This document shows positions 4,601-63,999 of a DNA stretch of 64,000 nt, in pieces. Where the stretch lies: IMG/VR virus record IMGVR_UViG_3300028377_000004, positions 1 through 64,000 of that record, one strand, 5' to 3'. The notes beneath the pieces were generated by a model. The model did no database searches, had not been told where the DNA came from, and saw nothing but the letters and a program-made list of their open reading frames with translations. The position numbers and the translations under genes were made by a program. Origin of the DNA: a virus. Position 1 is the first letter of the stretch. The number at the start of each line of letters is the position of its first letter.

Positions 4601-5500
4601 AATGCAGCACACAAGGTATCGAGTCCCGAAGGTCTGTTTGATGACGAACCTGATCTGATTAAAATATTTTCAGATACCGAGGACCAGATTTTTCTGTCCT
4701 CTAAAATGATAGGTGCTGTCCGTGTACTGGATGTTCTGTCTGAGGATGAGTCTCAGTCCTATGATTTTGATTTCAATAAGAAAACGCAGGAAGTCACGAT
4801 TCTTGACGGGCCTTTGCCAGAACATAGAACACCCCTAAAATTAAGATATCTAACTGATAAGCCGCATGGACATAAATACCTAAAAGAACAAGATCCTGTA
4901 ACCAAGCTGAACGAAGAGACACCTCCGTTTCCTCTGTCTCTCCAGAAAATTCTGACAGTCTCAGAAACTCCCGTAGATCCTGACTCTGATATCTTTAACG
5001 GCGCTTCATCATTTTCTGTTAGTAATGATGGAAAAACCAAATATACTTTCACTGTCAATGACGACGCTCTTTACGAAAGTCTGGACCTACGATCGTCAGT
5101 AATAAGAGGGGAAACTGGTAATATTTCACCCGCCTGTGATGATCTTGGTTGGACTGAGATCATCCTAGAGGAATGGGACGAAACTTACGAAACGTATCAA
5201 ATTCCAGATCAAGGACAGGCTGAATGTATTTATAGCCCCCTTATCTTAGATGATCCCGATTCAACCCTAGATGACGCTACTTGTGTTCGGGGATCTCTCC
5301 CTTTTTTAAACATAGATTTAAAGTGGACTCAAGAAGAAGAATATCCAGGTCCTATAGGAGATGAATTAGAAGAAGGGAAATTTAATGAGGTCGCTGGCCT
5401 TTTATTGGATGTGGCAGATAGTACCCTAGATAATGAAGAGGATCTTCTAGATACTTATGATGTAGGCGCAGACGTTCCTATAACATTTGAGATCTCATAA
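1637..5500 (+). CDS. Large virion adhesin-like protein with LamG-like domains
   Basis: 1287 residues, no signal peptide. The GAGGA that can serve as ribosome site lies inside the end of the preceding gene. The protein is acidic and beta-rich. Stretches such as HTYRVLRTQAGYLLFIDG (about 810-830) look like the strand-turn-strand of concanavalin/LamG-like sandwiches. An internal repeat is visible: GSVSRQGESRSGWDFIRYS near 497 and GHLDPRSFSHSEWEYIRYR near 953, each closing a similar domain. LamG-like domains on phage virions usually bind glycans or surface proteins, so a host-binding appendage is plausible. It sits among other tail genes. Confidence 0.65.
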   Translation: MSSSSDDQATFIITGGTEEPDGTKGWASSTGIGIDPDAPEQGVCSITTTSGAANSLLTGGIWQNSDAGSLLSAGIINTSQFVQADPNCFLGVIHTKHGPLTKGWGDARLAEPDDVEIIINGAFREVFHIEPTQGIIVLVNPIAVGASVQVSYFYTPNPTVNIASFNNEGYLFNQAGVASYYQKFPFTSVFGPDYQNPQPQEIGHIHTAFQRGYTAVFNDPTVLRFNEPPHTPGHPHLGRNLESFSVSFEGDHFPKEPWEVVGTQPVIPEFEEGLFIIDDISSSQNVIDSDPLFYQQETDISFDHIATINFRLQVFDYQKAEDFTGIAAGYASDQNLYLLGFLEVGGFQFAGFLENENEEDRWESYQGLTTEVVPVDDNGNLINTRLRYASEPPFEEGSQVFVEGSIYEVDSVSESTSNPGFYDVILTTIMPSSVTGTIETFPEIEFNSLNSYRIFKNEEGNIQAFVGGSPFPFAEAEETDLALGTETFEILDFNQVFFGSVSRQGESRSGWDFIRYSINPNSPTESAKKITVRSDFEELPEKHPDTPWSLLDDQGYSEILSGDKLLLEQAGRVAEGSFSYARIEPLLTSQFSSDFQTSLRVDSFSVGSAASVTMADERKEVTISLFAEDLTNDPADFASYLVSGGQSQLIDPVTILSGGAIPPSAAFSQDTPIPRFRAAYSGTASFEDEGWTSSFDDVESTFIDRWHRIQKEEGLLGSANIRIPFPDPNEPFEKHLFSTRLRMRDGTLTPENIRSLRIGIDDDLSYVSLAFWDDGNTKKVVFTDDNGIVEEDNFGDPVGVSFDWGDQEFHTYRVLRTQAGYLLFIDGIHAGTFTNLPSSVGNNDDDHYVLFIDLLEPEIELDLNYFFAHSTDYGPEKVGLYMGGDIKDPSSYEFVPTNWIGEDLDIRIHRDPAGKTQIFLNDETDPSFVKQYSELPDRNKPPILNTDLGYIRFGHLDPRSFSHSEWEYIRYRVNNVRHDLKTLQHSVFNAAHKVSSPEGLFDDEPDLIKIFSDTEDQIFLSSKMIGAVRVLDVLSEDESQSYDFDFNKKTQEVTILDGPLPEHRTPLKLRYLTDKPHGHKYLKEQDPVTKLNEETPPFPLSLQKILTVSETPVDPDSDIFNGASSFSVSNDGKTKYTFTVNDDALYESLDLRSSVIRGETGNISPACDDLGWTEIILEEWDETYETYQIPDQGQAECIYSPLILDDPDSTLDDATCVRGSLPFLNIDLKWTQEEEYPGPIGDELEEGKFNEVAGLLLDVADSTLDNEEDLLDTYDVGADVPITFEIS

Positions 5501-5570
5501 TTCAAATTTGTGAGAACCTTTTTGTATCCTATAACAGTACATTTAACAATCTATAGAGTGGTAAACTGAA

Positions 5571-6227
5571 ATGTTTTTAAAACGCTTCTACGCTAAAATT
5601 AAGCGTCTTGTAACCAACCTTCAAAGGGTTGATGTAGGGATGCAATATAAAGATAAGGCTCCTACTCCCATGGAAGGGGAAGTTTTTTTTGAGATCAGAG
5701 ATGGGAAAACCAACGAACTGCTCGAAAAGAGACACATAAAGAACGTAATCACCAAGGATATGTCAATTCTATTGGCATGGCTTGCTTGGGATAACGCAGG
5801 TCCCACACATGGCATCTTTGGACTAGCAGTAGGAACAGGGGATCCTGCATGGAACCTAGGCGCTTCGGACGCACCTCCACCTGCGGATGCGGAACAAAGA
5901 TCATTATTTGAAGAGATCGAACGAAAAGGATTTCTAGCGAAAAGCTTTGTAGATGGAGCGGGCGATCATGTTGCATATCCAACCAACATTGTGGACTTCA
6001 CCACTAAATTTGATGTTGGGGAAGCAAGTGACGGCGCGCTAGTGGAGATGGGTTTGATTGGTGGTGATGTGGATCTAAATAATCCTAACCCCCTATCAAA
6101 TGCGTCTCCCTATGATCCCGATATCAATGTAGAGACAAATGATTTGCTCTGCAACTATATTACATTTAAGCCTATAAACAAACCCGCCTCGTCCACGATG
6201 ACAATCTCGTGGAGGATCACGTTTTGA
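5571..6227 (+). CDS. Small tail-associated structural protein
   Basis: 218 residues. The N-terminus is basic (MFLKRFYAKIKRL). The middle has the pattern IKNVITKDMSILLAWLAW followed by GIFGLAVGTGDPAW and a proline-rich APPPADAEQRSLFEEIERK. This combination recurs in small phage structural proteins near baseplate and fibre genes. It ends in beta-strand-like sequence (TMTISWRITF). The gene lies 70 bases after the large adhesin-like gene and 19 bases before a large virion gene. I recognise the family only as phage structural; no enzymatic motif is visible. Confidence 0.6.
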   Translation: MFLKRFYAKIKRLVTNLQRVDVGMQYKDKAPTPMEGEVFFEIRDGKTNELLEKRHIKNVITKDMSILLAWLAWDNAGPTHGIFGLAVGTGDPAWNLGASDAPPPADAEQRSLFEEIERKGFLAKSFVDGAGDHVAYPTNIVDFTTKFDVGEASDGALVEMGLIGGDVDLNNPNPLSNASPYDPDINVETNDLLCNYITFKPINKPASSTMTISWRITF

Positions 6228-6246
6228 AAGACCCAGAGAATAACCA

Positions 6247-8763
6247 ATGAGTGATAAAAATTTAGGTCCTGATAATACCTATCTGGATCCTACAGAAAAA
6301 TCTTTTGAGACGGTCGTTTTTAAGAGAGGGAAACCTGTATCTCATGCAGAACTGAATCTTATTCAAGACATTCAGGGAAATTATAACTCTGAAACTCTGA
6401 GAAGACTAATGCCTTCCGGTTTCTTGACGGGAGATTTTTCCTCGAATAATTATGAGGACTTTGAATTTGGTATGGAAGCCAACACTTTTGAGTTGGTAGG
6501 AAAACCCAAAGTTCATGTGAATGGTTGGATCATACCTCTAGAATACACGGATACGGTTGATGCTGGAAAGAATAAAATAGAACTGCCCGGACCGATTGGT
6601 GGCCCGGATGGAAATATTTCAGTTGATTTTGTTTTCGTTGAAGTCTGGAGATCCCTCGTTGAAGCGAATCCTAGCACGGATAACAAACCTGCCCTTGATA
6701 AGATCTGGCCTCATGGTAATGTGTTAGCACCTACTGCTACCTGGCTGGACGATGATCTTCTGGATCCTCCCGTTATTGCAAACATGGATCCTGGTGAGAC
6801 TACCACACGTCGAGTCCAAATTCAATATGCCCTAAGAACTGTCAGATTGGACGGAGAGACTAGGGATGGATATTCTGACGTGAATGTAGAAGCACAGGGT
6901 CCTAATGCAACTGCAACTACTCTCACCTTTAGTGCGCATGGAGAAGACCCCGGTCTTTGGATAGCCGGAGATGGAGATCCCGATAATGATCTAAACACCG
7001 TTGATGGGTATGTCTATAGCATTCCAGTAGCTATGGTATGGAGAAGAAATTCCTCAGATTGGGATGCAGATTCAAATGGAGTAGGGGGAGGTCTTATAAG
7101 TTCGGGCACGCCGACCAGACCGGATGGTATCTATGCAGACCAGATTATAATGGACGATGTTTATGACCTAAGGCACGCAGTCCTTCCTAAGACACCAGAA
7201 TGGCAGAGGATTATGGAAAAGAGCACGTCTCTTCTTCTTGATAACGAGCTTCGATCCTGGGTTATGGGTAGAGATCAAGCGGTAGAATGGGAAGTGGCCA
7301 ATGCACCGACTTTTGGTAATCGCTTTTTGAAATGCGATGTAATATTACCCTGGGGAAATACCTCTAATAAGGGAAATGAAATCCGTCACTTTGATGGAAT
7401 CTGTACGGTTTTCAGTGACAGGTCACACGTCCAAAGGCATGTTATTGAATTCGACGCTCTTTCTAACGCAGCGGGAGCCAACTGGGATGAAGGGGATACC
7501 CTTGTATTTACTCTACCAAGTGTTGAGTATTTTAACAACGGACCAAGTACAGGGAGAGAAGCGTTTATTACAGACGTAATTTCTGTTGTCATTAATGATG
7601 TGGATGGAGGTTCTGCCCTTTTTGATGTTCCTTTTTCAGACGCACTAGGTCTGGGCACGGACGAAGTTACTATAAGGATAGATGACCTTTCTTTTACCAG
7701 CGATGCTGATATTTGGGTAGAATACGAAGTGACCTATCTAGCAGGTGGAGGTCTTACCTCAATTGTTAAAGATAATCTGGATGATGCTAATTTCAATTTC
7801 ATTATTGAATCCGGTACTGAGCCTGCGGACTATGCAGATCTGGAAGTTCTATATGAAGAAGGACCTCACAGAGAAGTTGAAGTTCAATGGCGTCCTCTCA
7901 CTGATAGAGTTCTAGACACTTTTGTAGTAGGCACAGATCAGGTTATATTGCCTGAGCTTCCGTATATTACAGACCCTCTTAACCCGGACACTTCGTTTAC
8001 GGTAACTGTGGACGGAAATGCCGATACAGTTGCTTCTGTTGATAGAAGGGCTTTGACTCTCAGTTCTGCTCATACTGAGGGAGATGTGGTGGGGATAACT
8101 TTCACTCCTCTAAAACCTTTGCCTTCCACTTCCAAAGTGTTCCTGTATTATTTAGCACCTTCGATTCAAGCTCTACCCCAAGATTTACTTCCTGCTACCC
8201 TAGACATAGAGCCTCTATTTATACCTTCTTATTTATACACAGGAACAGCGTCCTCGGGATCGGTAGTAACACCTTTTCCCTATGAGGCACCACTTAATCA
8301 GATTCCCGTATCAGGTGGGGCCCCCGCTTCAGCTTACCAGGGAGAGCAATCTTTAAGTGCGCCTGGTCCGGTTAGCGTTGATTCTTTTGATGCGCTTACA
8401 GGGCTTCTGAAACTCCCTGTAATGGTACCTATGGTAGATGTTGATACTATTTCACTGGAAGTTCCAGCTAAAAATACTTTAGAGGAGATAGGACATTATA
8501 GAGCCACAGACGATACCGAGTATTTTCCATCGGTTTTTTCTCAAAGCCTTTCTTCCGAAGTAACTCACAAGGCATTTATGCCGGTAGTCGCACGTTTGAA
8601 AGAAGATACTTCTTTTGGAAGAAAAGGAACAGCGGTTCTAGTAATAATGACTCAATATTTTGATCGAGCATCTGAGAATAAAATCACGTTCGGGGATAAT
8701 ATCTTCGTATGTGCGGGCATTTATCGCCTTAAAGGAAATTGGCTCACTCATCATAGCAACTAA
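6247..8763 (+). CDS. Virion structural protein, paralogue of the protein at 12892-17346
   Basis: 838 residues. The N-terminus has the pattern FETVVFKRGKPVSHAELNLIQD, like phage structural proteins with a [F/Y]xPGKPVxxxELNxLQ motif (DUF4815-like). Residues 1 to about 340 parallel the protein at 12892-17346 in the same order: VVFxxGKPxSxxEfNL, a PSGxL/I segment, VEVWR/EVWK, RVQxQYxxR, NTVDGYVY and DDVxDLRH. The rest is divergent beta-rich sequence. It is probably a tail fibre or baseplate appendage. It belongs to the same + strand late run as its neighbours, starting 19 bases after the previous stop and ending 13 bases before the next start. Confidence 0.7.
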   Translation: MSDKNLGPDNTYLDPTEKSFETVVFKRGKPVSHAELNLIQDIQGNYNSETLRRLMPSGFLTGDFSSNNYEDFEFGMEANTFELVGKPKVHVNGWIIPLEYTDTVDAGKNKIELPGPIGGPDGNISVDFVFVEVWRSLVEANPSTDNKPALDKIWPHGNVLAPTATWLDDDLLDPPVIANMDPGETTTRRVQIQYALRTVRLDGETRDGYSDVNVEAQGPNATATTLTFSAHGEDPGLWIAGDGDPDNDLNTVDGYVYSIPVAMVWRRNSSDWDADSNGVGGGLISSGTPTRPDGIYADQIIMDDVYDLRHAVLPKTPEWQRIMEKSTSLLLDNELRSWVMGRDQAVEWEVANAPTFGNRFLKCDVILPWGNTSNKGNEIRHFDGICTVFSDRSHVQRHVIEFDALSNAAGANWDEGDTLVFTLPSVEYFNNGPSTGREAFITDVISVVINDVDGGSALFDVPFSDALGLGTDEVTIRIDDLSFTSDADIWVEYEVTYLAGGGLTSIVKDNLDDANFNFIIESGTEPADYADLEVLYEEGPHREVEVQWRPLTDRVLDTFVVGTDQVILPELPYITDPLNPDTSFTVTVDGNADTVASVDRRALTLSSAHTEGDVVGITFTPLKPLPSTSKVFLYYLAPSIQALPQDLLPATLDIEPLFIPSYLYTGTASSGSVVTPFPYEAPLNQIPVSGGAPASAYQGEQSLSAPGPVSVDSFDALTGLLKLPVMVPMVDVDTISLEVPAKNTLEEIGHYRATDDTEYFPSVFSQSLSSEVTHKAFMPVVARLKEDTSFGRKGTAVLVIMTQYFDRASENKITFGDNIFVCAGIYRLKGNWLTHHSN

Positions 8764-40658: not shown

Positions 40659-40758
40659 GGAGAAGAGAATACTTGGGATATACTATACCTTGACTTCAGG
40701 TACATTAATAAGGTAAAAGTAGTTCTCTAATTGTTTTGTTGTAGAAGTGAGGGAGATA

Positions 40759-41886
40759 ATGGTGGCAGTATTAAAGATGTCTGAAATTGCGCAGTCAAAA
40801 GAACCACTAGTCATTATGATGATCGGCGCTTCGGGAAGTGGCAAGAGTACCCTTGCACATGAGTTGACTACTTTCCGAGATGATATGATTGTGGTATCCT
40901 CTGACGATACTCGTGAGCTTCTTACGGGAGATCCAGGCAATATGCCTATCTCTCGTTTGGCTTTTGAGCATATTCATACGATCTTGGAAACCCGATCAAG
41001 GCATGGAGTCAGCACGGTATTTGATGCAACTTCCCTGAAACGTGCCGACCGAATGGCTATTATGGCGAGTGCCCGGAAAAGTGATCGACATTTTAAGGTG
41101 GTGGGTGTTCTGGTAGAAACTCCCCTAGAGACGTGTAAAGCCCGCCAACACATGAGGGACCGTCAAGTACCCGAGTACGTGATTGAAAAACATCACAATA
41201 GCTATCAGGCTTCCAAGAAGAACGTTTTGGAGGAGAGGTTTGATGCTTTATTCATCTATGATACAGAGGAAAAAACCCTTACGGAATTAGAAACGTTTAC
41301 CCCTCCCGAGCCGTCCCTTGATATCGCCAATATTGTTACGGCGTTTAATAAGAAGACGATAGGCTCGAAAGTAACAGATCCGATTCCCTTTCTTGCCACT
41401 TTGAGTAAAGCCTTAAAAGCTACAGACTTTGGTAATCAGAGAGTGAAGGGGCAGGCATATATCCCCCTTAACGAAGCTGTTCCTTATGTATCGTGCGGGG
41501 TAGGAATTGGTACGGGGGATCCGTCAGACTATGTGATCAGAGAACACCGAGGAAATATGGGTTTGTATCTCAAAAGAGAACATGCTGCTCCAACCAAAAA
41601 CTTGGCAGTTGTTGTATATACCAGAGATGCCTATATGGCAGACCCTGATGTACAAGAGAATACGGAAGAATTCCAGAGAGCTACGGATTCGGATTCTACG
41701 CACTTCTTGGTAGCAGTCCTAGCAAGTGCTGGGGATCACAGCCCGCACACTCCAGGACGTTTTGTACGGAATCTGGCGGGAGGTAATCATGAAGCTATGT
41801 TCTGGACTGCCTCGGAGATTCGCAAGAAGGCCCAAGAAATTGTATCCTATTATGATGAAGAAAACTGGAAAGTGGTGGCAGACTGA
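40759..41886 (+). CDS. Pnkp-type polynucleotide kinase fused to an unknown domain
   Basis: 375 residues. The start is set at the ATG at 40759 after GAGGGAGA; a GTG 12 bases upstream is weaker. Walker A is GASGSGKST (23-31), followed by MIVVSSDDTRELL, AFEHIHTILETRSRHGVSTVFDATSLKRADR and CKARQHMRDRQVP. These are the blocks of the 5'-kinase of bacterial Pnkp and of T4 Pnk. From about 210 a second domain of about 165 residues follows (VIREHRGNMGLYLKREHAAPTKNLAVVVYTRDAY, then HFLVAVLASAGDHSP, FVRNLAGGNHE); its function is unknown. There is no phosphatase domain attached, but one is encoded at 55612-57738. Confidence 0.85.
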   Translation: MVAVLKMSEIAQSKEPLVIMMIGASGSGKSTLAHELTTFRDDMIVVSSDDTRELLTGDPGNMPISRLAFEHIHTILETRSRHGVSTVFDATSLKRADRMAIMASARKSDRHFKVVGVLVETPLETCKARQHMRDRQVPEYVIEKHHNSYQASKKNVLEERFDALFIYDTEEKTLTELETFTPPEPSLDIANIVTAFNKKTIGSKVTDPIPFLATLSKALKATDFGNQRVKGQAYIPLNEAVPYVSCGVGIGTGDPSDYVIREHRGNMGLYLKREHAAPTKNLAVVVYTRDAYMADPDVQENTEEFQRATDSDSTHFLVAVLASAGDHSPHTPGRFVRNLAGGNHEAMFWTASEIRKKAQEIVSYYDEENWKVVAD

Positions 41887-42669: not shown

Positions 42670-43191
42670 ATGAATCTTAAAAAACAGTTAATCCAATTAG
42701 GTGAAGACCACAAAGATCTTAGACCTCATCTGAAAGTCCTCGTAGATTATCTACAAGACAAAGAAGGGGGGTCGTGGTATGATAAGGGGGAAACTAGCCC
42801 TAAAACTGAACCTTCTGAGGCTCCAAGCCCTACTCATAAAATACCTGAAGGTAAAGACCAGATATTTTCAGGTTCACCGGATTCTCTGAGAGCTTTTAAT
42901 ACCGTCATCCTTCCTCAGATCCAGGCAAAAGCTGATGCTTTTTCTTTTGAGGATATGACCAAAATGATGGAAGAGATAGATTCCCTTGGTACCTCAAAAA
43001 ATACGGAATTAGAAAATGCTCTTATTGTATGTAAACCTGTTTCAATGAACACGGGTAAATTTTATCAAGAGATTCAAAACGTGTTCAAGGATTGGATGCG
43101 TCCCAAGTTAAAAGGGGAAGGACAAGGACAAGAGGAGGGATCTACAGAAAAAGAAGATTCTAAAAAAGAATACAACTTTAATTTTCAGTAA
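42670..43191 (+). CDS. Uncharacterised virion-block protein with LIxLGxxHxxLRxHL leader
   Basis: 173 residues. The N-terminus LKKQLIQLGEDHKDLRPHLKVLVDYL closely matches that of the protein at 54568-55140 (LKDPLIKLGNTHPELRDHLRHILSSL). A proline- and acid-rich linker follows, then a helical domain (SLRAFNTVILPQIQAKADAFSFEDMTKMMEEIDSLG), and a Gln/Glu-rich tail. It is the first gene of the second virion block. A targeting or prohead leader function for the shared segment is inference. Confidence 0.55.
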   Translation: MNLKKQLIQLGEDHKDLRPHLKVLVDYLQDKEGGSWYDKGETSPKTEPSEAPSPTHKIPEGKDQIFSGSPDSLRAFNTVILPQIQAKADAFSFEDMTKMMEEIDSLGTSKNTELENALIVCKPVSMNTGKFYQEIQNVFKDWMRPKLKGEGQGQEEGSTEKEDSKKEYNFNFQ

Positions 43192-53228: not shown

Positions 53229-53367
53229 ATGACTAAAAAAACAAATTAAAGTCGTACTATCAGGATCCGGAACTCTTTATCCAATGCACGCAGGCGCTCT
53301 CCATTATCTATCAGATGCAGGTTATGATCTGGTTTCGGGATACCTAATTCAGGGAAGATTTTTATGA
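53229..53367 (+). pseudogene. Decayed partial copy of the patatin gene
   Basis: The frame from 53242 reads QIKVVLSGSGTLYPMHAGALHYLSDAGYD, almost the same as the N-terminus of the intact patatin gene that starts at 53364 (KIKVVLSGAGVLYPLHAGAIKRLVDEGH). An ATG at 53229 is joined to it by a run of seven A, where one extra base breaks the frame (stop at 53247-53249). The copy stops at TGA 53365-53367, overlapping the start of the intact gene. This is a remnant of a tandem duplication. The 110 bases upstream hold nothing else that I can support. Confidence 0.75.
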
Positions 53368-54149
53368 AAATAAAAGTAGTATTATCAGGGGCGGGGGTTC
53401 TATATCCACTCCATGCTGGTGCAATAAAGAGACTAGTAGACGAAGGTCATATCATTACTGATATTTGTGGTATTTCAGGCGGGGCTATTATAGCAGCAGC
53501 TATCGCATCTGGAATCCAAATAAAAGACCTTGAGGCTCTAATTTTAGACACAGTTCCTTCCGAAAACAAACTACTTGACTGGTCTTTGTTAGCGCCTTGG
53601 AAATGGGGTTTATATAAGGGAGATAAATTAGAAAAAGTATTTCAAGACCTATTTGTGAGTAAATTTAAGGACACTAAAATTTCTCTTTCTATTGGTGCTA
53701 CTAATCTTAATGCCAAATCTCACACGATTTTTTCTACGGAAAATACCCCAGAATTTTCCGTTGCAAAAGCAGTACGAGCATCTATTGCAATTCCCGGAGT
53801 TTTCCAACCTGTAAAAATAGGGGAGAGTTATTTGTGTGACGGTGGGGTATCAGCTAATTTCCCTTTGAATATTTATGGCACAGGGGAAAATGTTTTCGGA
53901 TTACGAATACGGTCGGGTGAGCAACTTAAAGAGAGAATTAAAATATCATCCCTTAAGGACTATGGAGCCGCAGTAATTAGTTCAATGATGGAGGCCATAA
54001 GTAAAGAGCACATAGAAGATGCAGTATTTGCTAGAACAATGATATTGACATCGGAAACCTCTTCTTTGAATTTATACTCATCATCAGAAATTATGGAATC
54101 TTTATTTCAAGAAGGATATCAACAGGCAGGAAAATGGCTAGAAAAATAA
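53364..54149 (+). CDS. Patatin-like phospholipase
   Basis: 261 residues. The catalytic dyad is visible: Ser38 in GISGG (36-40) and Asp159 in the DGG motif of SYLCDGGVSANFP. The N-terminal SGAGVLYPLHAGA corresponds to the oxyanion-hole Gly-rich loop, somewhat altered. This is the RssA/patatin fold that hydrolyses membrane lipids. No signal peptide is seen, so it acts in the cytoplasm or on the virion. Its place in a virion block would fit a tail-associated lipase or lysis aid. Patatins are also CBASS effectors in bacteria, but no sensor or cyclase is present here. Confidence 0.85.
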   Translation: MKIKVVLSGAGVLYPLHAGAIKRLVDEGHIITDICGISGGAIIAAAIASGIQIKDLEALILDTVPSENKLLDWSLLAPWKWGLYKGDKLEKVFQDLFVSKFKDTKISLSIGATNLNAKSHTIFSTENTPEFSVAKAVRASIAIPGVFQPVKIGESYLCDGGVSANFPLNIYGTGENVFGLRIRSGEQLKERIKISSLKDYGAAVISSMMEAISKEHIEDAVFARTMILTSETSSLNLYSSSEIMESLFQEGYQQAGKWLEK

Positions 54150-55214: not shown

Positions 55215-55601
55215 CTAACTAGGAAAGATCTCATTCGTATCTAGGTCTATCCAATGAAATTCTCCACTCCCCCAAATCCCATCTATATGGTTAGGCACCT
55301 CTTCATCTATTTCTTCATCAAAATAAACATTCTCTACTTCGATCTGTAAGTAGTCGTCTAGCTTGTGGAGACGATCTGTGGAGTGGAAAAACCTATTCTG
55401 TCTGGCCCAATATAACCCGGGAGCTAGAGAATTAAAAAGAAAAACAACCCTCTCCTTGGTGAGATCTCCATCTTCCCAGTGATGCTTATTATTTTCCCAG
55501 GGATGTCTAGCACTTTCTGTATTACTCATAATTTCAAGAAATGCTAGGATCGTATAGTAGAAATCGTTATCATCGAATCTAATTCCCAGTCTTTTAATCA
55601 T
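55215..55601 (-). CDS. Uncharacterised protein downstream of the RNA ligase
   Basis: 128 residues, acidic. FDDNDFYYTILAFLEIM and WENNKHHWEDGDLTKERVVFLFNSLAPGLYWARQNRFF suggest helices; the end is beta-like (GEFHWIDLDTNEIF). No family is recognised. It starts 10 bases after the phosphatase-ligase stop and shares its transcript, from promoter copy 6 to the terminator at 55161-55200, so a linked function is possible. Confidence 0.5.
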   Translation of the reverse strand: MIKRLGIRFDDNDFYYTILAFLEIMSNTESARHPWENNKHHWEDGDLTKERVVFLFNSLAPGLYWARQNRFFHSTDRLHKLDDYLQIEVENVYFDEEIDEEVPNHIDGIWGSGEFHWIDLDTNEIFPS

Positions 55602-55611
55602 TCCGGATCCT

Positions 55612-57738
55612 TTAATTCAGTTCAAGGTCCACTTCAAAACTCAGAGAGTCCAGAGAAATTTTCTCTTCTCCATCCTTCCATCTAGTTACAATAGCTTTGA
55701 AGCCAGTACAAGGTTCATGACTCCACATAACATCGTCAAGGGGTAGTTCACCATTTCGAGCGTAAGCCATTATGAAACCGAATAGAGTTTGGTCAAATTT
55801 TTCTCGGGACCACATGGCTAGGGTTTTGTAATACTCACCAGTTTGTAAATCTCCTTTATCGTATCGATCGTTAAAATCTTCGACAATAGCAGTTGCATTG
55901 TCTCGAATTTCCTTGACCCCTTTCATATACATCATGAACCTGTCAAAATGTTCCCGATAGAAGGATTCGACCTCTTCTTCAGTCAAAAGGTTCTTTTTCA
56001 ACTGCGCATTAAACGTGTCCCAATCCTGCATTTCAGGACGATTCCAGATCATTTCCACAACGCTTTTATAAGTACACTGAAATTTAAGGCGATGATATTT
56101 CAGGTACTCCATTGTTTTCACTTTAACTCTGTGAATGACCTTCCCATCCTGCTCAAAGCAAACGATAGCCCCCTCGGGAAGATCCTCACGACCATCAAGA
56201 GCATTACGGACTTCGGCAACTCCCTGATCCAACTTGTCAGTTTTCAGAAATATTTCGGAAGTATCCAAATCATGTTCATCCGCGAATTCCGAAACTCGCG
56301 AGGAAGACCAATAATCATATTCTTCAAGGTCAAAAACCGAAAGAAGAGTTAGAGACTGGAGATCCCCATAATCCGTAACAACTCGGGCTTCAGGATGAAT
56401 CAATTCAAACACCAGAGTTTTTCCTTTCACAAAAGAAGGGTCAATAATGTGAGGATATTTTTCCTTTGCAATCTCACGAGCCGCTTCCATATAAGGGAAA
56501 CTGGAATCATCAATGTATTCTTCATTCCCTTCCATAACCGAACGTGTTGTAAATACAACGTTGCCCTCATGTTCAAAGACCTGAATCATCGTACCATCCA
56601 TTTTCTCGACGAATACGATGTCTACCCCTCTTACATCCTCAAAACGCCGTGACACTTCGTCTGAGAACTCACGACACCCATGATTGTGCATCTTCACCAG
56701 TGGTAAAGATACCAAACGATAAGGGTCTTTAGTATAGACAATACCTTTGGAATATAGTTGATGTTCTGCTTCCGGTTCAAAAAGAGCTTTGGAAGCGTTG
56801 GCAATTATAAGAGGACCACACTGTCTCTTATTAAGAAGTTCATCAGTATCTACCAAGTACAAAACATCTTCTTCTTTTTCCTGTAATTTTTCCAGGAGAT
56901 AGGGAAGGGACATATCTGTAATAGGTTTTGGCTTTGTAGTTCTAAGTTTTGGAGTCTTGCCCGATCCTCCAATAGCCAAGTTTCGACCATCTTCTCTTTC
57001 TTGACGAGAAAGTACGGACACTAGTTCTCTCTCAGGATATCGGAGAGCAGTGAGCTTGTTACCACCAAAGCAACAGGTATCTACACACACCGCCTTAGGC
57101 GTCACATAAGGCTCTTCATGCGTAACGTGTCCCCATACCACAAAAGGAGTATCTTCTGTGGCTTTTTCGTTATAGGAAGGAACCCAATCCAACCTAACAG
57201 GAAAACCATTAGCATCACGACCTCCAGTGGTATGTCCGTAGAGGGCCGCTGATTTTATACGGCCTCTACCCGCGTCCTTGGGAGGTGGCGCAGCATGGCA
57301 TACTAGAAGTTTACCTGCATCAAAAGTGATCGAAAGAGGAAGATCCAGAAGCCATTTAGAATAGTCCTGTTTCTTCTCATCTTCTTCCCAATCTTTCAAC
57401 TCTTCTAGGGTAGACTCCAAACCGTGTGCTATCTTGATCGGATTTCCTTTCAAAGCACGGCCTAGTTTGTCATCGTGATTTCCACGAGACACAAAAGCAA
57501 GATCTTCTTCTACATGCTTTCTGACAAATTCAAGGGCTTCCCTGCTTTTAGGTCCCCGGTCTGTGATATCTCCCACAAAAGCAAGAAGACGCCCCTCTGG
57601 GTGCCTCCACAAGCCTTCGGAATCAGGTTCGTAACCTAAGACCCCAAGTAGTTCAAGAAGCTCATCAAAACAGCCGTGAACGTCTCCTACGACATCTACT
57701 TTGGTTACTTCTGGGTATTCATTTTGCAAGTGCGTCAT
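55612..57738 (-). CDS. Fused Pnkp-type phosphatase and T4 Rnl1-type RNA ligase
   Basis: 708 residues. The N-terminal 250 residues are a calcineurin-like phosphoesterase: GDVHGC (Asp19, His21), GDITDRGP (Asp57), GNHDDKL (Asn87), His148, WGH (His204) and Asp220. The GNHDDKLGRALKGNPIKIAHGLESTLEEL block is that of the 2',3'-phosphatase of bacterial Pnkp. After a linker comes an RNA ligase of the T4 Rnl1/Trl1 type: motif I EKMDGT (Lys379, the AMP-bound Lys), FELIHPEARVVTDYG, EGAIVCFE and VKVKTMEYL. The Pnkp kinase is missing here but is encoded at 40759-41886. The product probably heals and seals broken tRNA. It has its own promoter. Confidence 0.9.
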   Translation of the reverse strand: MTHLQNEYPEVTKVDVVGDVHGCFDELLELLGVLGYEPDSEGLWRHPEGRLLAFVGDITDRGPKSREALEFVRKHVEEDLAFVSRGNHDDKLGRALKGNPIKIAHGLESTLEELKDWEEDEKKQDYSKWLLDLPLSITFDAGKLLVCHAAPPPKDAGRGRIKSAALYGHTTGGRDANGFPVRLDWVPSYNEKATEDTPFVVWGHVTHEEPYVTPKAVCVDTCCFGGNKLTALRYPERELVSVLSRQEREDGRNLAIGGSGKTPKLRTTKPKPITDMSLPYLLEKLQEKEEDVLYLVDTDELLNKRQCGPLIIANASKALFEPEAEHQLYSKGIVYTKDPYRLVSLPLVKMHNHGCREFSDEVSRRFEDVRGVDIVFVEKMDGTMIQVFEHEGNVVFTTRSVMEGNEEYIDDSSFPYMEAAREIAKEKYPHIIDPSFVKGKTLVFELIHPEARVVTDYGDLQSLTLLSVFDLEEYDYWSSSRVSEFADEHDLDTSEIFLKTDKLDQGVAEVRNALDGREDLPEGAIVCFEQDGKVIHRVKVKTMEYLKYHRLKFQCTYKSVVEMIWNRPEMQDWDTFNAQLKKNLLTEEEVESFYREHFDRFMMYMKGVKEIRDNATAIVEDFNDRYDKGDLQTGEYYKTLAMWSREKFDQTLFGFIMAYARNGELPLDDVMWSHEPCTGFKAIVTRWKDGEEKISLDSLSFEVDLELN

Positions 57739-60028: not shown

Positions 60029-61351
60029 TTAAACTTTATTGATAGTAATTGTCACGAAATTTCGGGCTATTCTACCATCTCCAGAAGTAGCTCGCACTCC
60101 AATGGTCCAGTAAAACTTTCCAGCGTCATCAAATTGAGGGGAAGGAACTAATGGAGCTTCAAAAGGAACTATTTTTCCCGTAGCATCCCCAAAATTACCG
60201 TCTCCTGTCAAGTCCCATTCATAGGTAGAAGAACCCGAGAAATTAGTTACGGCTTCATAGTGGGTTTGGTCCCCTTCTCCCACAGATATAAGACCGTCAA
60301 TTGATACCGTTAGTTTTTCAGAAGAGACAAACTGATAAGAGGCATCTTCGGTCACAAAGATTTCTTCTTTCTTCCCTAACCTGTCAACTTCTACCTGATA
60401 GGAAATATCTTCCTGAGGTTCTTTGAATCTAGGTTTGACTCTAATACCTGAGCCTAAATTTTCAACTACCCTATAATGTCCGTAATTAGGTCCTTCTAGT
60501 ATGATTAAATTAGCACCTAGGGCCACAGAATCTAAGGGTTTATTGAAAGCATCATCTTCTAGAACATTAAGAGCACCTAGTTCGGTATACCCCGTTTCAG
60601 AAGAGAACCCTTTCATACCTCCGCAATTTTTACGAACGTCTTCATAGCGACGATCATGCATTGACCAGGCGCCGTCTTCAATGATATCATTTATTTTATC
60701 ATTATCAGGATCCACAATATCGGTAAAAACGTGTGATATTTCATAGAGGGTATGCGCAGGCTTGACGATATTAATCAATAGCAAAATATTGTTTTGAAGA
60801 ACAAAAGGATCCGTTGGAAACTGGTTATCTAATTCAAACTCAATAGTAAAAGCAAACTGATTAGAAATATCATAAACAGATCCCGGATTCTGAGATTCTT
60901 TGAAAATTTCTTTGATCTCAAATTCTTGGTCAGTAAATAATTCAACTGCTTGTCTTATTGCAGATGGTGTCGAACCCTGAAAGAAAATATCTATAATTGT
61001 CAATAGAAATTCTCTAAATTCTTCGTCGTCAAGATCGATATCCGGTTGTTCATCCAAAAACACAAAATATCCAACCACCTGATTCAAAAACTCTGATCTC
61101 ACCAGATCAAATGAGATATCAGAACTAAGTTCCTCAATAGCAAGGGTAAATCTAGCTAATTCTGTGGCAATAGCCTTCAAGTAGAAAGCGTATTCCGTAG
61201 AAGGAATAGTAGACCTATAGTTAGATGCCAGATATCCCATAAGGGTTTCTAGGATCGCAGTGGCCCTTGACTGTAATGTTTTAGAATACCCTTTTCCCTT
61301 TTTAGTTAGAGGAAAAGGAAATTGTCGTTCTCCGTCAAATCCATTTGACAT
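60029..61351 (-). CDS. gpI-like tail protein with PKD-like C-terminal domain
   Basis: 440 residues. The N-terminal half is helical with features of gpI-type baseplate proteins: YLASNYRSTIPSTEYAFYLKAIATELARF, then LLTIIDIFFQGSTPSAIRQAVELFT. The C-terminal 80 residues have GSSTYEWDLTGDGNFGDATGK, the PKD-domain pattern, followed by FYWTIGVRATSGDG. It lies 8 bases after the J-like gene, as gpI follows gpJ in many phages. A tail wedge component is likely; the PKD domain suggests it also faces outward. Confidence 0.7.
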   Translation of the reverse strand: MSNGFDGERQFPFPLTKKGKGYSKTLQSRATAILETLMGYLASNYRSTIPSTEYAFYLKAIATELARFTLAIEELSSDISFDLVRSEFLNQVVGYFVFLDEQPDIDLDDEEFREFLLTIIDIFFQGSTPSAIRQAVELFTDQEFEIKEIFKESQNPGSVYDISNQFAFTIEFELDNQFPTDPFVLQNNILLLINIVKPAHTLYEISHVFTDIVDPDNDKINDIIEDGAWSMHDRRYEDVRKNCGGMKGFSSETGYTELGALNVLEDDAFNKPLDSVALGANLIILEGPNYGHYRVVENLGSGIRVKPRFKEPQEDISYQVEVDRLGKKEEIFVTEDASYQFVSSEKLTVSIDGLISVGEGDQTHYEAVTNFSGSSTYEWDLTGDGNFGDATGKIVPFEAPLVPSPQFDDAGKFYWTIGVRATSGDGRIARNFVTITINKV

Positions 61352-61359
61352 AAAAGACC

Positions 61360-63999
61360 TCAGCGATACGTGATGGTAAGATTTCCTAATTCAGCGAATG
61401 CGACATCCATCAAGTCTATTGTGGATCTAGAAGAGCGATCTCCTTGAACCTCATAAGAAGCTGTATAAGAGTAATCCTCGGGACTGTCATTAGAAGACAG
61501 AGAGACGAATATTCTATTTGCTGTTAGCTCCAGGCGTCTTCCTTCTTTTGCTGCCTGCGTAAGATACCCATCATTCTCTAATGTTTGATCATCAGAATAT
61601 CCCGGAATAATAAGTCCCTCTGAGCCTACCACTAGAGAGCGACCAGGACCCTCCATAAGGTCTGAATAGGTAGCGACAATAGCAAGGGGTTGCCGGTCCT
61701 GAAAAACTCCCCTGTGTTGCATTCGTGATCCCCCACCATTAATGGTCTGGTGACTGAGAGAATCCTGGAGAGCATAGAGAGATATATTAGAAAGTGTTTC
61801 TTCTAAAAAGACAAATGAGCTATCAACATCCTCCCTTACAATTAGGTTCCCGTCTGTATGACTCATTCTAGCGAAAGGTACAATTACATAGTCGACGCCA
61901 GTAGTATTCTCAATGACTCTGACCACATCCGATTGGTGGACAGATTTTCCTACCCCTCTAGAGTTCATAAGCTGTGAAATATTAGTCCTCAAAGCCACAT
62001 CCACCTGGGACTGCACCGCACCATGAGAAAGAACTACAGTCATTTCCAAATCAATTAAGTTTTGAATTGCCTGCTTTGCAAGTACGTCTGCGGTGATATG
62101 GCGTTGCCCGTCTACTTTCCTTTGTACATTTTCTAAGACTTCATTGATGGTATAGGAAATCTGGAAATTTTCATCATGCTCATAGTCTACACTGACTTCG
62201 GATCCATCCTCGATATCTCCATCAGGGTTTCTAACGATCTGCAAAGGAGTAGTTTCGGATCCTGCCTGAATGAAAAAATCAGGGTCCGCAGTTAGTGGGC
62301 CGTCATATTCGATAGTGCGATCTAACGAGAAAACTCTAACGCTAAAAGGTGTTACCCCAAGGTTCACTAAGGCTGCAGGTATTTCCCCTACCAGTACATG
62401 CCTCTCATCATTGATATCAATGATGTCTCCCGAAGGGATTCCCCCGCTTTCAGTAAGTACCAGATAATCTCTGGCCCTAGTGGAATAGCCTTCAATGAGG
62501 GGGTCTTGAGTCCTGAAGAATTCATAATGATCTCCTTCTGCAAGAACATCATCGGAACTCAAACTCTGGATCGTATTGACTGCTTGAACCGGCTGTCTGG
62601 AAAATACATATTCATCCGTTTCTCTAAATCGGAAATCACCAATAACCACGTTATTAGGCCCTACAGGAGGTTGAGGAATCTGTGTGCTTAATTGAATTCT
62701 GTTATGAGATAACAGGCTATAGTCCGTAAGATCAAAAGACTGTCCTGTAGTCACATTTCGGAATCCAAATCCTTGCGCCTGTTCTTCGGGGGTTTCTCCT
62801 AATAACTGAGTGATTGGATTCTCGGGGGTAACTCGATCGTCATCTACAACGAAAATATATTGATTAGGAACGGAATCCAAAAAGAATCTCACATCTCTTT
62901 CAATGCGAAAACGGAGAGCAAAAGTATCTTCGACTTCTCGCCTTTGTTCCCCTTGTACCCATACATCTACTTTTCCCCCAATATGTTTATCTCTGACCTC
63001 ATCATAATCCCGAACCATGTGCGTATGTCCAGCGTCAATAATTTTGGCCCTGAAAACTCCTACCTGCCCAAGTGCGGTCGCCAGATACCCTGATTTTGTT
63101 CCAGCATCTACAGAAGAAAACGCAAGCATGGATCTCTCCGCAAGGTCCTGATTGGATTCTTCATTGCGCCCAAATCTAGTCGCCTCTAAATTAGTAACTT
63201 GAAGTCCAGAAGCACCTCCAATAACACGGGTAATTTGACCCGCGGGAACATTTCCATTTTCGCCCGGAGTCGTTGCAATGATATTTGCTTGAATTTCCCA
63301 TCTTCTTCGTTGAATATTAAAGTAGGAATCTCGACTAGTAAAGGGAAGTGTAACTCTAGAGGTGACCCTGAAAGTTGCACTTCCATCCTGAGTTGGGACA
63401 AGGGTTCCTTCCTCAACTACCAGATCATTCTGAGGTTCTGTTGGAGTATAAAACGTTGCAGTTCCTACCGCAGGCTGCGCCCCCAAACGAACTTTATTGG
63501 TATTGGCAGATAATTTATCGAAAGAGTCATCAATGATTTGCTGAACATTCGCTACATTGGTGAACCCCATAGCAGAAGCGAGAGCCTGTTTGTACGAATC
63601 TAATTCGTCTACTACTAATAGAGTTGCAAAGGACTGGGATCTACGAACGAAATCTGCAATAAAATAAAGCCGCTCTGCTTCCGTAGCAAAAGGATCAATA
63701 AAAACGTCTTTTACCACGGACCCTGGCATAACTGATATTTCATTATCATAGTTAATTACACGGTCGATATAGTCTTCTGTAACATCAAACCTTGTGCGCC
63801 TGGGGACATCTCGAAGTTGCGTGTCTATTTCCAAAGGATATCCAACTAATTCAGAACTATAAGCAGATTCAATTTCCTGGTTGGTTGTTTGATTATAAAC
63901 TACCGTCGTCATTACATAATAAAGAGGCTCATCATCTGGAATGTCAGCAAAAACCTCATTATTAATGAAACCATCCTGCTCTGTTCCTGACCTGTTGTG
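61360..63999 (-). CDS. Baseplate J-like protein (5' partial)
   Basis: At least 850 residues from the ATG at 63912, but the same frame is open to the right edge (reading FINNEVFADIPDDEPLYYV before that Met), so the true start is probably outside. Blocks PGSVVKDVFIDPFATEAERL, AVGTATFYTPTEPQNDLVVEEGTLV, TTPGENGNVPAGQI and ESNQDLAERSMLAFSSVDAGTKSGYLATA are those of the baseplate J/gp6 family. These build the wedge of contractile tails. It is first in the - strand virion operon and precedes the gpI-like gene. This is the strongest evidence for a myovirus-type tail. Confidence 0.85.
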   Translation of the reverse strand, partial: HNRSGTEQDGFINNEVFADIPDDEPLYYVMTTVVYNQTTNQEIESAYSSELVGYPLEIDTQLRDVPRRTRFDVTEDYIDRVINYDNEISVMPGSVVKDVFIDPFATEAERLYFIADFVRRSQSFATLLVVDELDSYKQALASAMGFTNVANVQQIIDDSFDKLSANTNKVRLGAQPAVGTATFYTPTEPQNDLVVEEGTLVPTQDGSATFRVTSRVTLPFTSRDSYFNIQRRRWEIQANIIATTPGENGNVPAGQITRVIGGASGLQVTNLEATRFGRNEESNQDLAERSMLAFSSVDAGTKSGYLATALGQVGVFRAKIIDAGHTHMVRDYDEVRDKHIGGKVDVWVQGEQRREVEDTFALRFRIERDVRFFLDSVPNQYIFVVDDDRVTPENPITQLLGETPEEQAQGFGFRNVTTGQSFDLTDYSLLSHNRIQLSTQIPQPPVGPNNVVIGDFRFRETDEYVFSRQPVQAVNTIQSLSSDDVLAEGDHYEFFRTQDPLIEGYSTRARDYLVLTESGGIPSGDIIDINDERHVLVGEIPAALVNLGVTPFSVRVFSLDRTIEYDGPLTADPDFFIQAGSETTPLQIVRNPDGDIEDGSEVSVDYEHDENFQISYTINEVLENVQRKVDGQRHITADVLAKQAIQNLIDLEMTVVLSHGAVQSQVDVALRTNISQLMNSRGVGKSVHQSDVVRVIENTTGVDYVIVPFARMSHTDGNLIVREDVDSSFVFLEETLSNISLYALQDSLSHQTINGGGSRMQHRGVFQDRQPLAIVATYSDLMEGPGRSLVVGSEGLIIPGYSDDQTLENDGYLTQAAKEGRRLELTANRIFVSLSSNDSPEDYSYTASYEVQGDRSSRSTIDLMDVAFAELGNLTITYR

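Follow-up and report, generated by a model that had tools for sequence, protein, structure and literature searches.

A phage phosphatase-ligase fusion and a separate Pnkp-type kinase as a probable split RNA repair system

RNA Repair by End Healing and Sealing

In phage T4, tRNALys cut by PrrC is repaired by two proteins, with Pnkp healing the ends and Rnl1 sealing them (PMC3014915; PMC3400036). T4 PNK acts on cut tRNA and also on transcripts cut by RegB (PMC3014915). Capnocytophaga gingivalis possesses Pnkp1-Rnl-Hen1, a hybrid system for RNA repair whose functions are split over several proteins (PMC4411300). Bacterial Pnkp, represented here by CthPnkp, holds kinase, phosphatase and ligase in a single chain.

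The locus considered here lies in a 64,000-base stretch of DNA, the window, taken from a linear virus record of 127,574 bases. It encodes a phosphatase joined to an RNA ligase, and this fusion probably does the healing and sealing in a T4-like phage repair system that is split between two proteins, with the kinase acting in trans.

The Phosphatase-Ligase Fusion

The fusion and its parts are as follows.

55612..57738, minus strand: phosphatase-ligase fusion, 708 aa (open reading frame, profiles, fold and an orthologue in contig L011)
57001..57702, minus strand: Pnkp-type metallophosphoesterase domain, residues 13-246 (profiles, PDB and alignment)
56923..56985, minus strand: disordered linker that joins phosphatase and ligase, residues 252-272 (pLDDT below 50)
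55744..56757, minus strand: ligase of the T4 Rnl1 type, residues 328-665 (in the model, the fold spans about 278-690)

The gene is a single unbroken frame that begins with ATG, preceded a few bases upstream by GGAAG, and its product consists of an N-terminal calcineurin-type phosphatase, a disordered linker and a C-terminal T4 Rnl1-type ligase. Kinase profiles found no match in this frame. The AlphaFold model of the fusion has a mean pLDDT of 83, and a Foldseek search of the model against the PDB returned the CthPnkp phosphatase first, with T4 Rnl1 as the best ligase. A chance match is excluded by the profile E-values and by a full-length orthologue in L011, an 85.8-kb phage contig, which is 51% identical over 682 aa. 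The initial annotation had proposed that a Pnkp-type phosphatase is joined here to a ligase of the T4 Rnl1 type rather than the Pnkp type, and profiles, motifs and fold bear this out: the N-terminal half matches Pnkp (TIGR04075) and the C-terminal half matches phrog_562 (T4 Rnl1 family), and structure prediction recovers the CthPnkp phosphatase and T4 Rnl1 folds.

Within residues 13-246, the bacterial Pnkp profile TIGR04075 (NCBIfam) scores 6e-64 and 216.6 bits, a match confined to this domain and set against a 750-bit cut-off for the family, while the PrpE profile scores 5e-58 and 196.4 bits. By profile, the N-terminal half is therefore not placed among the Ap4A phosphatases, with Pnkp ahead of PrpE by 20 bits. 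Among solved structures, the phosphatase of CthPnkp comes nearest (PDB 4j6o; E 1.3e-48, 45% identity), and it is also the fold match (E 5.5e-22, TM 0.83 by target; Foldseek). The phosphatase blocks GDVHG (18), GDITDRG (56), GNHDDKL (86), HGLEST (105), CHAAPP (147) and GHVTHEE (203) are all present. The metal ligands had been reported as complete, together with the GNHDDKL and HGLESTL blocks, and the alignment agrees: D19, H21, D57, R61, N87, H88, H148, H204 and D220 are identical to CthPnkp at nine of the nine catalytic positions checked. The active-site set of CthPnkp is taken here to be D187, H189, D233, R237, N263, H264, H323, H376 and D392.

In phosphatase trees, the phage branch lies outside both the Pnkp and the PrpE clades, and the AU test rejects neither grouping with Pnkp (p 0.29) nor grouping with PrpE (p 0.30). 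In the sequence set compared, eight alignment columns tell Pnkp from PrpE. The window's protein agrees with Pnkp at two of them, GNHD and one other, and has a gap in common with Pnkp at another; two columns follow PrpE, and the rest follow neither family. The metal-binding block reads GNHD in the fusion, as in Pnkp, and GNHC in all 10 PrpE sequences compared, while E110 and S241 of the fusion are PrpE-like. A placement strictly inside Pnkp or PrpE was given up, as tree and AU test favour neither.

Over residues 328-665, phrog_562 matches at 4e-27, and an Rnl1 profile made of sequences of other phages, leaving out the window's, matches the fusion at 2e-29. The profile made from 52 ligase domains of bacterial Pnkp did not match the fusion at E<1, and TIGR02308 had no match in the window. 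Pfam RNA_ligase falls slightly below its cut-off in the window, and PF09511 is above cut-off in an unfused relative, L276. Among solved ligases, the model is best matched by T4 Rnl1 (2c5u; E 2.4e-13). The nucleotidyl-transfer motifs are all kept (K379-x-D381-G382, E445, E522-G523 and K539-x-K541), with K379 predicted to be the AMP-accepting lysine. One position departs from the pattern: K331 stands in for the Arg of the RG motif, being Lys in all four phages of the clade and Arg in 25 of 25 other stand-alone Rnl1 proteins compared. This Arg presumably corresponds to R54 of T4 Rnl1. The conserved replacement suggests adaptation, but the ligase may also be less active or act differently.

The Separate Kinase

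A second gene of the window would supply the activity that the fusion lacks.

40747..41886, plus strand: Pnkp-type 5'-kinase with an extra C-terminal domain, 379 aa (AAA_33, 2.4e-24)
40807..41274, plus strand: kinase domain, residues 21-176
41314..41883, plus strand: extra C-terminal domain of the same protein, residues 190-379 (no clear family match)

Of all solved structures, the CthPnkp kinase is nearest to residues 21-176 (4gp7; 1.7e-19), and the fold matches 4gp6 with a TM of 0.77. Aligned with Pnkp kinases, the domain keeps the P-loop G27ASGSGKST35, D53, R56, D93 and the lid residues R137 and R139. The extra C-terminal domain occurs as a separate gene shortly downstream of the kinase in L276 (2308-3165) and L273 (1459-2226), at 55-58% identity; a match of DUF3228 to the L273 copy is marginal (E 0.048). 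The description of this locus as a kinase-less Pnkp thus holds for the protein, which has no kinase domain, but not for the system, which has a co-inherited Pnkp-type kinase in trans. Kinase and fusion genes lie about 14 kb apart on opposite strands in the window and about 25 kb apart in the contig of L011, so the two do not form an operon there. The second metallophosphoesterase of the genome (97778-98740) was also considered and is of the phrog_221 type, not Pnkp-like.

Genomic Neighborhood

The surroundings of the fusion gene include the following features.

55215..55601, minus strand: open reading frame of 128 aa that starts 10 bases after the fusion gene (no family match)
60029..63912, minus strand: baseplate genes upstream of the fusion, conserved near the fusion in L011
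60029-61351, minus strand: Tail_P2_I-like gene within this baseplate context
61360-63912, minus strand: Baseplate_J gene within this baseplate context

The 128-aa frame may be co-transcribed with the fusion. A gene for a patatin-like phospholipase (53364-54149, plus strand; 5e-30) lies nearby and also adjoins the fusion in L011 (7255-8040). Short open reading frames at 42670, 54568, 75527 and 127220 of the record have a common N-terminus resembling M-x-L-K-D-x-L-I-K-L-G-x-x-x-P-x-L-R, with similar ones in L276 and L273, which suggests a repeated N-terminal signal or domain.

No tRNA gene was found across the whole record, no Rfam family in the window, no match to RtcB in the record and none to Hen1 (TIGR04074) in G000, G001, G002, G003 and G007, records that may be incomplete. 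The virus record itself may be incomplete, which makes the absence of other repair genes a weak point; the absence of tRNA genes, RtcB and Hen1 neither helps nor hurts the RNA repair reading much.

Relatives and Co-inheritance

The fusion of L011 is syntenic with that of the window, standing beside baseplate and patatin genes, and its phage has a separate kinase elsewhere in the contig (L251:1474-1998, minus strand). In two further relatives the three activities are three separate genes: kinase 1458-2003, phosphatase 5977-6684 and ligase 6925-8208 in L276, and kinase 799-1344, phosphatase 5225-5932 and ligase 6460-7722 in L273. Phosphatase and ligase genes adjoin there, with the kinase some 4 kb upstream, on one strand and all within about 7 kb, and the baseplate proteins of these phages are 56-58% identical to the window's. 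The halves that the linker joins in the fusion are thus genes of their own in L273 and L276. Since the parts stand as separate genes in these relatives, the comparison indicates that two gene fusions occurred in the window's lineage, one of phosphatase with ligase and one of kinase with the extra domain.

The window's phage, L011, L273 and L276 form the same clade in all three trees, with support of 99/96 for the kinase, 100/100 for the ligase and 97/86 for the phosphatase, where L275 is an added member. The trees are consistent with joint inheritance of kinase, phosphatase and ligase. A small methyltransferase-like frame with weak Pfam matches only lies between the kinase and phosphatase genes of L276 (3167-3703) and L273 (3056-3607); it could be a Hen1-like partner or unrelated.

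Independent Fusions and Distribution

Phosphatase-Rnl1 fusions of 631 and 646 aa also occur in L035 and L019, respectively. These group apart from the window's fusion in both the phosphatase and the ligase trees, whose starred branches rule out a common origin of the two fusion types. A P-loop kinase gene lies directly upstream of each, and kinase and phosphatase both cluster with a single-chain enzyme, L018, as expected if the kinase domain had detached or had not yet joined. A separate kinase gene accompanies all four phosphatase-ligase fusions found (window, L011, L035 and L019).

Single chains of kinase, phosphatase and Rnl1-like ligase, with the kinase N-terminal, make up about thirty open reading frames in viral contigs, and matches that cover 80% or more of one such frame came from more than 100 isolated-phage records, with Alicyclobacillus, Bacillus SPbeta-like and Staphylococcus phages foremost. 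They are annotated as 'RNA ligase' or hypothetical. The initial annotation knew of no enzyme with the pairing seen here, a claim that does not stand: a phosphatase of this fold and an Rnl1-like ligase in one chain are widespread in phages, together with an N-terminal kinase. What is new is the two-protein split and its convergent origin, with an earlier mention of the architecture in the literature being possible.

The kinase-free fusions number only four viral records, the window's included, a count that is a lower bound because pattern-based scans of viral contigs miss distant cases. With a single sequence as query, scans of these contigs gave one distant match for the fusion but nothing for the kinase or for the domain at its C-terminus, and two-sequence alignments were needed as queries to find relatives. 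Among 50,697 isolated phages, tblastn found no record in which either fusion type was matched along 80% of its length. In Microcystis phage Mel-JY01, a neighbouring 'AAA domain' gene was suspected of encoding a kinase, but its product is an unrelated ATPase.

Other arrangements of the parts were also observed. In L013 (3294-4370, 4404-5771 and 5761-6990), a kinase-phosphatase gene overlaps an Rnl1 gene, and the preceding frame resembles, by eye, a second RNA ligase with a KxxG motif. Bacillus phage G (L381) has a kinase, gp264, and right after it gp265, an unannotated ligase of the Rnl1 type (profile 2e-56). A jumbo-phage Rnl1 ligase (L002:7791-9257) carries a C-terminal stretch like the C-terminal domain of ribosomal protein L7/L12 (NF005269, 2.8e-7), which might serve in docking at ribosomes.

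Proposed Mechanism and Alternatives

The two domains with their intact active-site residues and the co-inherited kinase gene, as found computationally, suggest how repair might proceed. After cleavage by a metal-independent RNase, the N-terminal phosphatase would convert the resulting 2',3'-cyclic phosphate or 3'-phosphate to a 3'-OH, and the separate kinase (40747-41886) would phosphorylate the 5'-OH. The C-terminal Rnl1-type domain would then self-adenylate on K379 and join the 5'-phosphate to the 3'-OH, with the fusion holding the healed 3' end close to the sealing site. By analogy with T4, the likeliest substrate would be host tRNA whose anticodon loop has been cut in defence against phages. 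We infer each catalytic step from conserved residues, and the cooperation of kinase and fusion from co-inheritance and neighbourhood. RNA repair, the role first suggested for this protein, is thus supported as likely.

Alternatively, phosphatase and ligase may need no kinase and act on ends already bearing a 5'-phosphate, such as those left after metal-dependent nucleases or RNA with both 3'-phosphate and 5'-phosphate, and the phage kinase may serve another purpose. The kinase is indeed not adjacent to the fusion in the window or L011, and AAA_33 kinases are common, occurring in 14 of 14 control genomes. Yet this kinase is specifically Pnkp-like, falls in the same clade as the phosphatase and ligase, shares their neighbourhood in L276 and L273, and lies directly upstream of the independent fusions, which leaves a kinase-free system unlikely. 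A somewhat smaller chance attaches to the N-terminal domain being a PrpE-type Ap4A (or protein) phosphatase with a role in signalling or nucleotide metabolism. The narrow gap between the two profile scores, the AU result for PrpE and residues E110 and S241 would fit such an enzyme, but it is fused to an RNA ligase, has GNHD rather than GNHC, and belongs to a fold that phages repeatedly pair with kinase and ligase.

The ligase half might instead act mainly in virion assembly. In T4, gp63 has the further activity of promoting tail-fibre attachment, from which phrog_562 takes its name, and in both the window and L011 the fusion shares strand and neighbourhood with the genes for Baseplate_J and Tail_P2_I. 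In L276 and L273, however, the genes for phosphatase and ligase have the opposite orientation to those of the baseplate, and the ligase and phosphatase active sites are complete, making an assembly role highly improbable. Action on phage mRNA ends, as by T4 PNK on RegB-cut transcripts, rather than on defence-cut tRNA is very doubtful as well: the T4 enzyme does both (PMC3014915), but a ligase has no obvious use in mRNA decay. The preferred reading remains a split repair system that would heal and seal cut RNA, most likely tRNA.

Comparison With Known Systems

On balance, the pair may well represent an undescribed split of the Pnkp triad, in which a kinase with an extra domain and a phosphatase-Rnl1 enzyme form a two-protein repair complex; phages would have arrived at this arrangement independently on two or more occasions, starting from three genes or from a single chain. 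Phages keep the three activities and join them variously, as three separate proteins, as kinase plus phosphatase-ligase, as kinase-phosphatase plus ligase, or all in one chain. This extends the known wirings of RNA end-healing and sealing, and the natural series offers a test of which activities need physical coupling. It also helps to identify phages that probably resist defences based on tRNA cleavage, and a one-chain enzyme for 3'-healing and ligation could help to capture RNAs with cyclic-phosphate ends.

Bacterial Pnkp (CthPnkp; TIGR04075), which has Hen1 as its partner, contains a phosphatase 45% identical to that of the fusion with the nine checked catalytic positions the same, and its kinase domain is the nearest to the phage's separate kinase. 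However, the bacterial protein unites all three domains in one chain of about 850 aa, whereas the window's phage has its kinase apart, and the bacterial ligase is Hen1-dependent, whereas the window's is of the Rnl1 type with no Hen1 match in the record. The C. gingivalis system is, like the window's, hybrid, multi-protein and split in function, but it combines a T4-like kinase-phosphatase with a Pnkp-like ligase and Hen1. The single-chain phage 'RNA ligase' (phrog_8238) of Staphylococcus, Bacillus SPbeta-like and Alicyclobacillus phages has the same phosphatase fold and an Rnl1-like ligase in the same order, although its kinase lies within the chain and, in sequence, its phosphatase and ligase are far from those of the window. 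T4 Pnkp and Rnl1 are phage-borne, with the kinase in trans to an Rnl1-type ligase, as in the window's phage. In T4 the kinase is fused to a HAD-type phosphatase and the ligase stands alone, whereas in the window's phage the ligase is the partner of a phosphatase of the metallophosphoesterase type and it is the kinase that stands alone.
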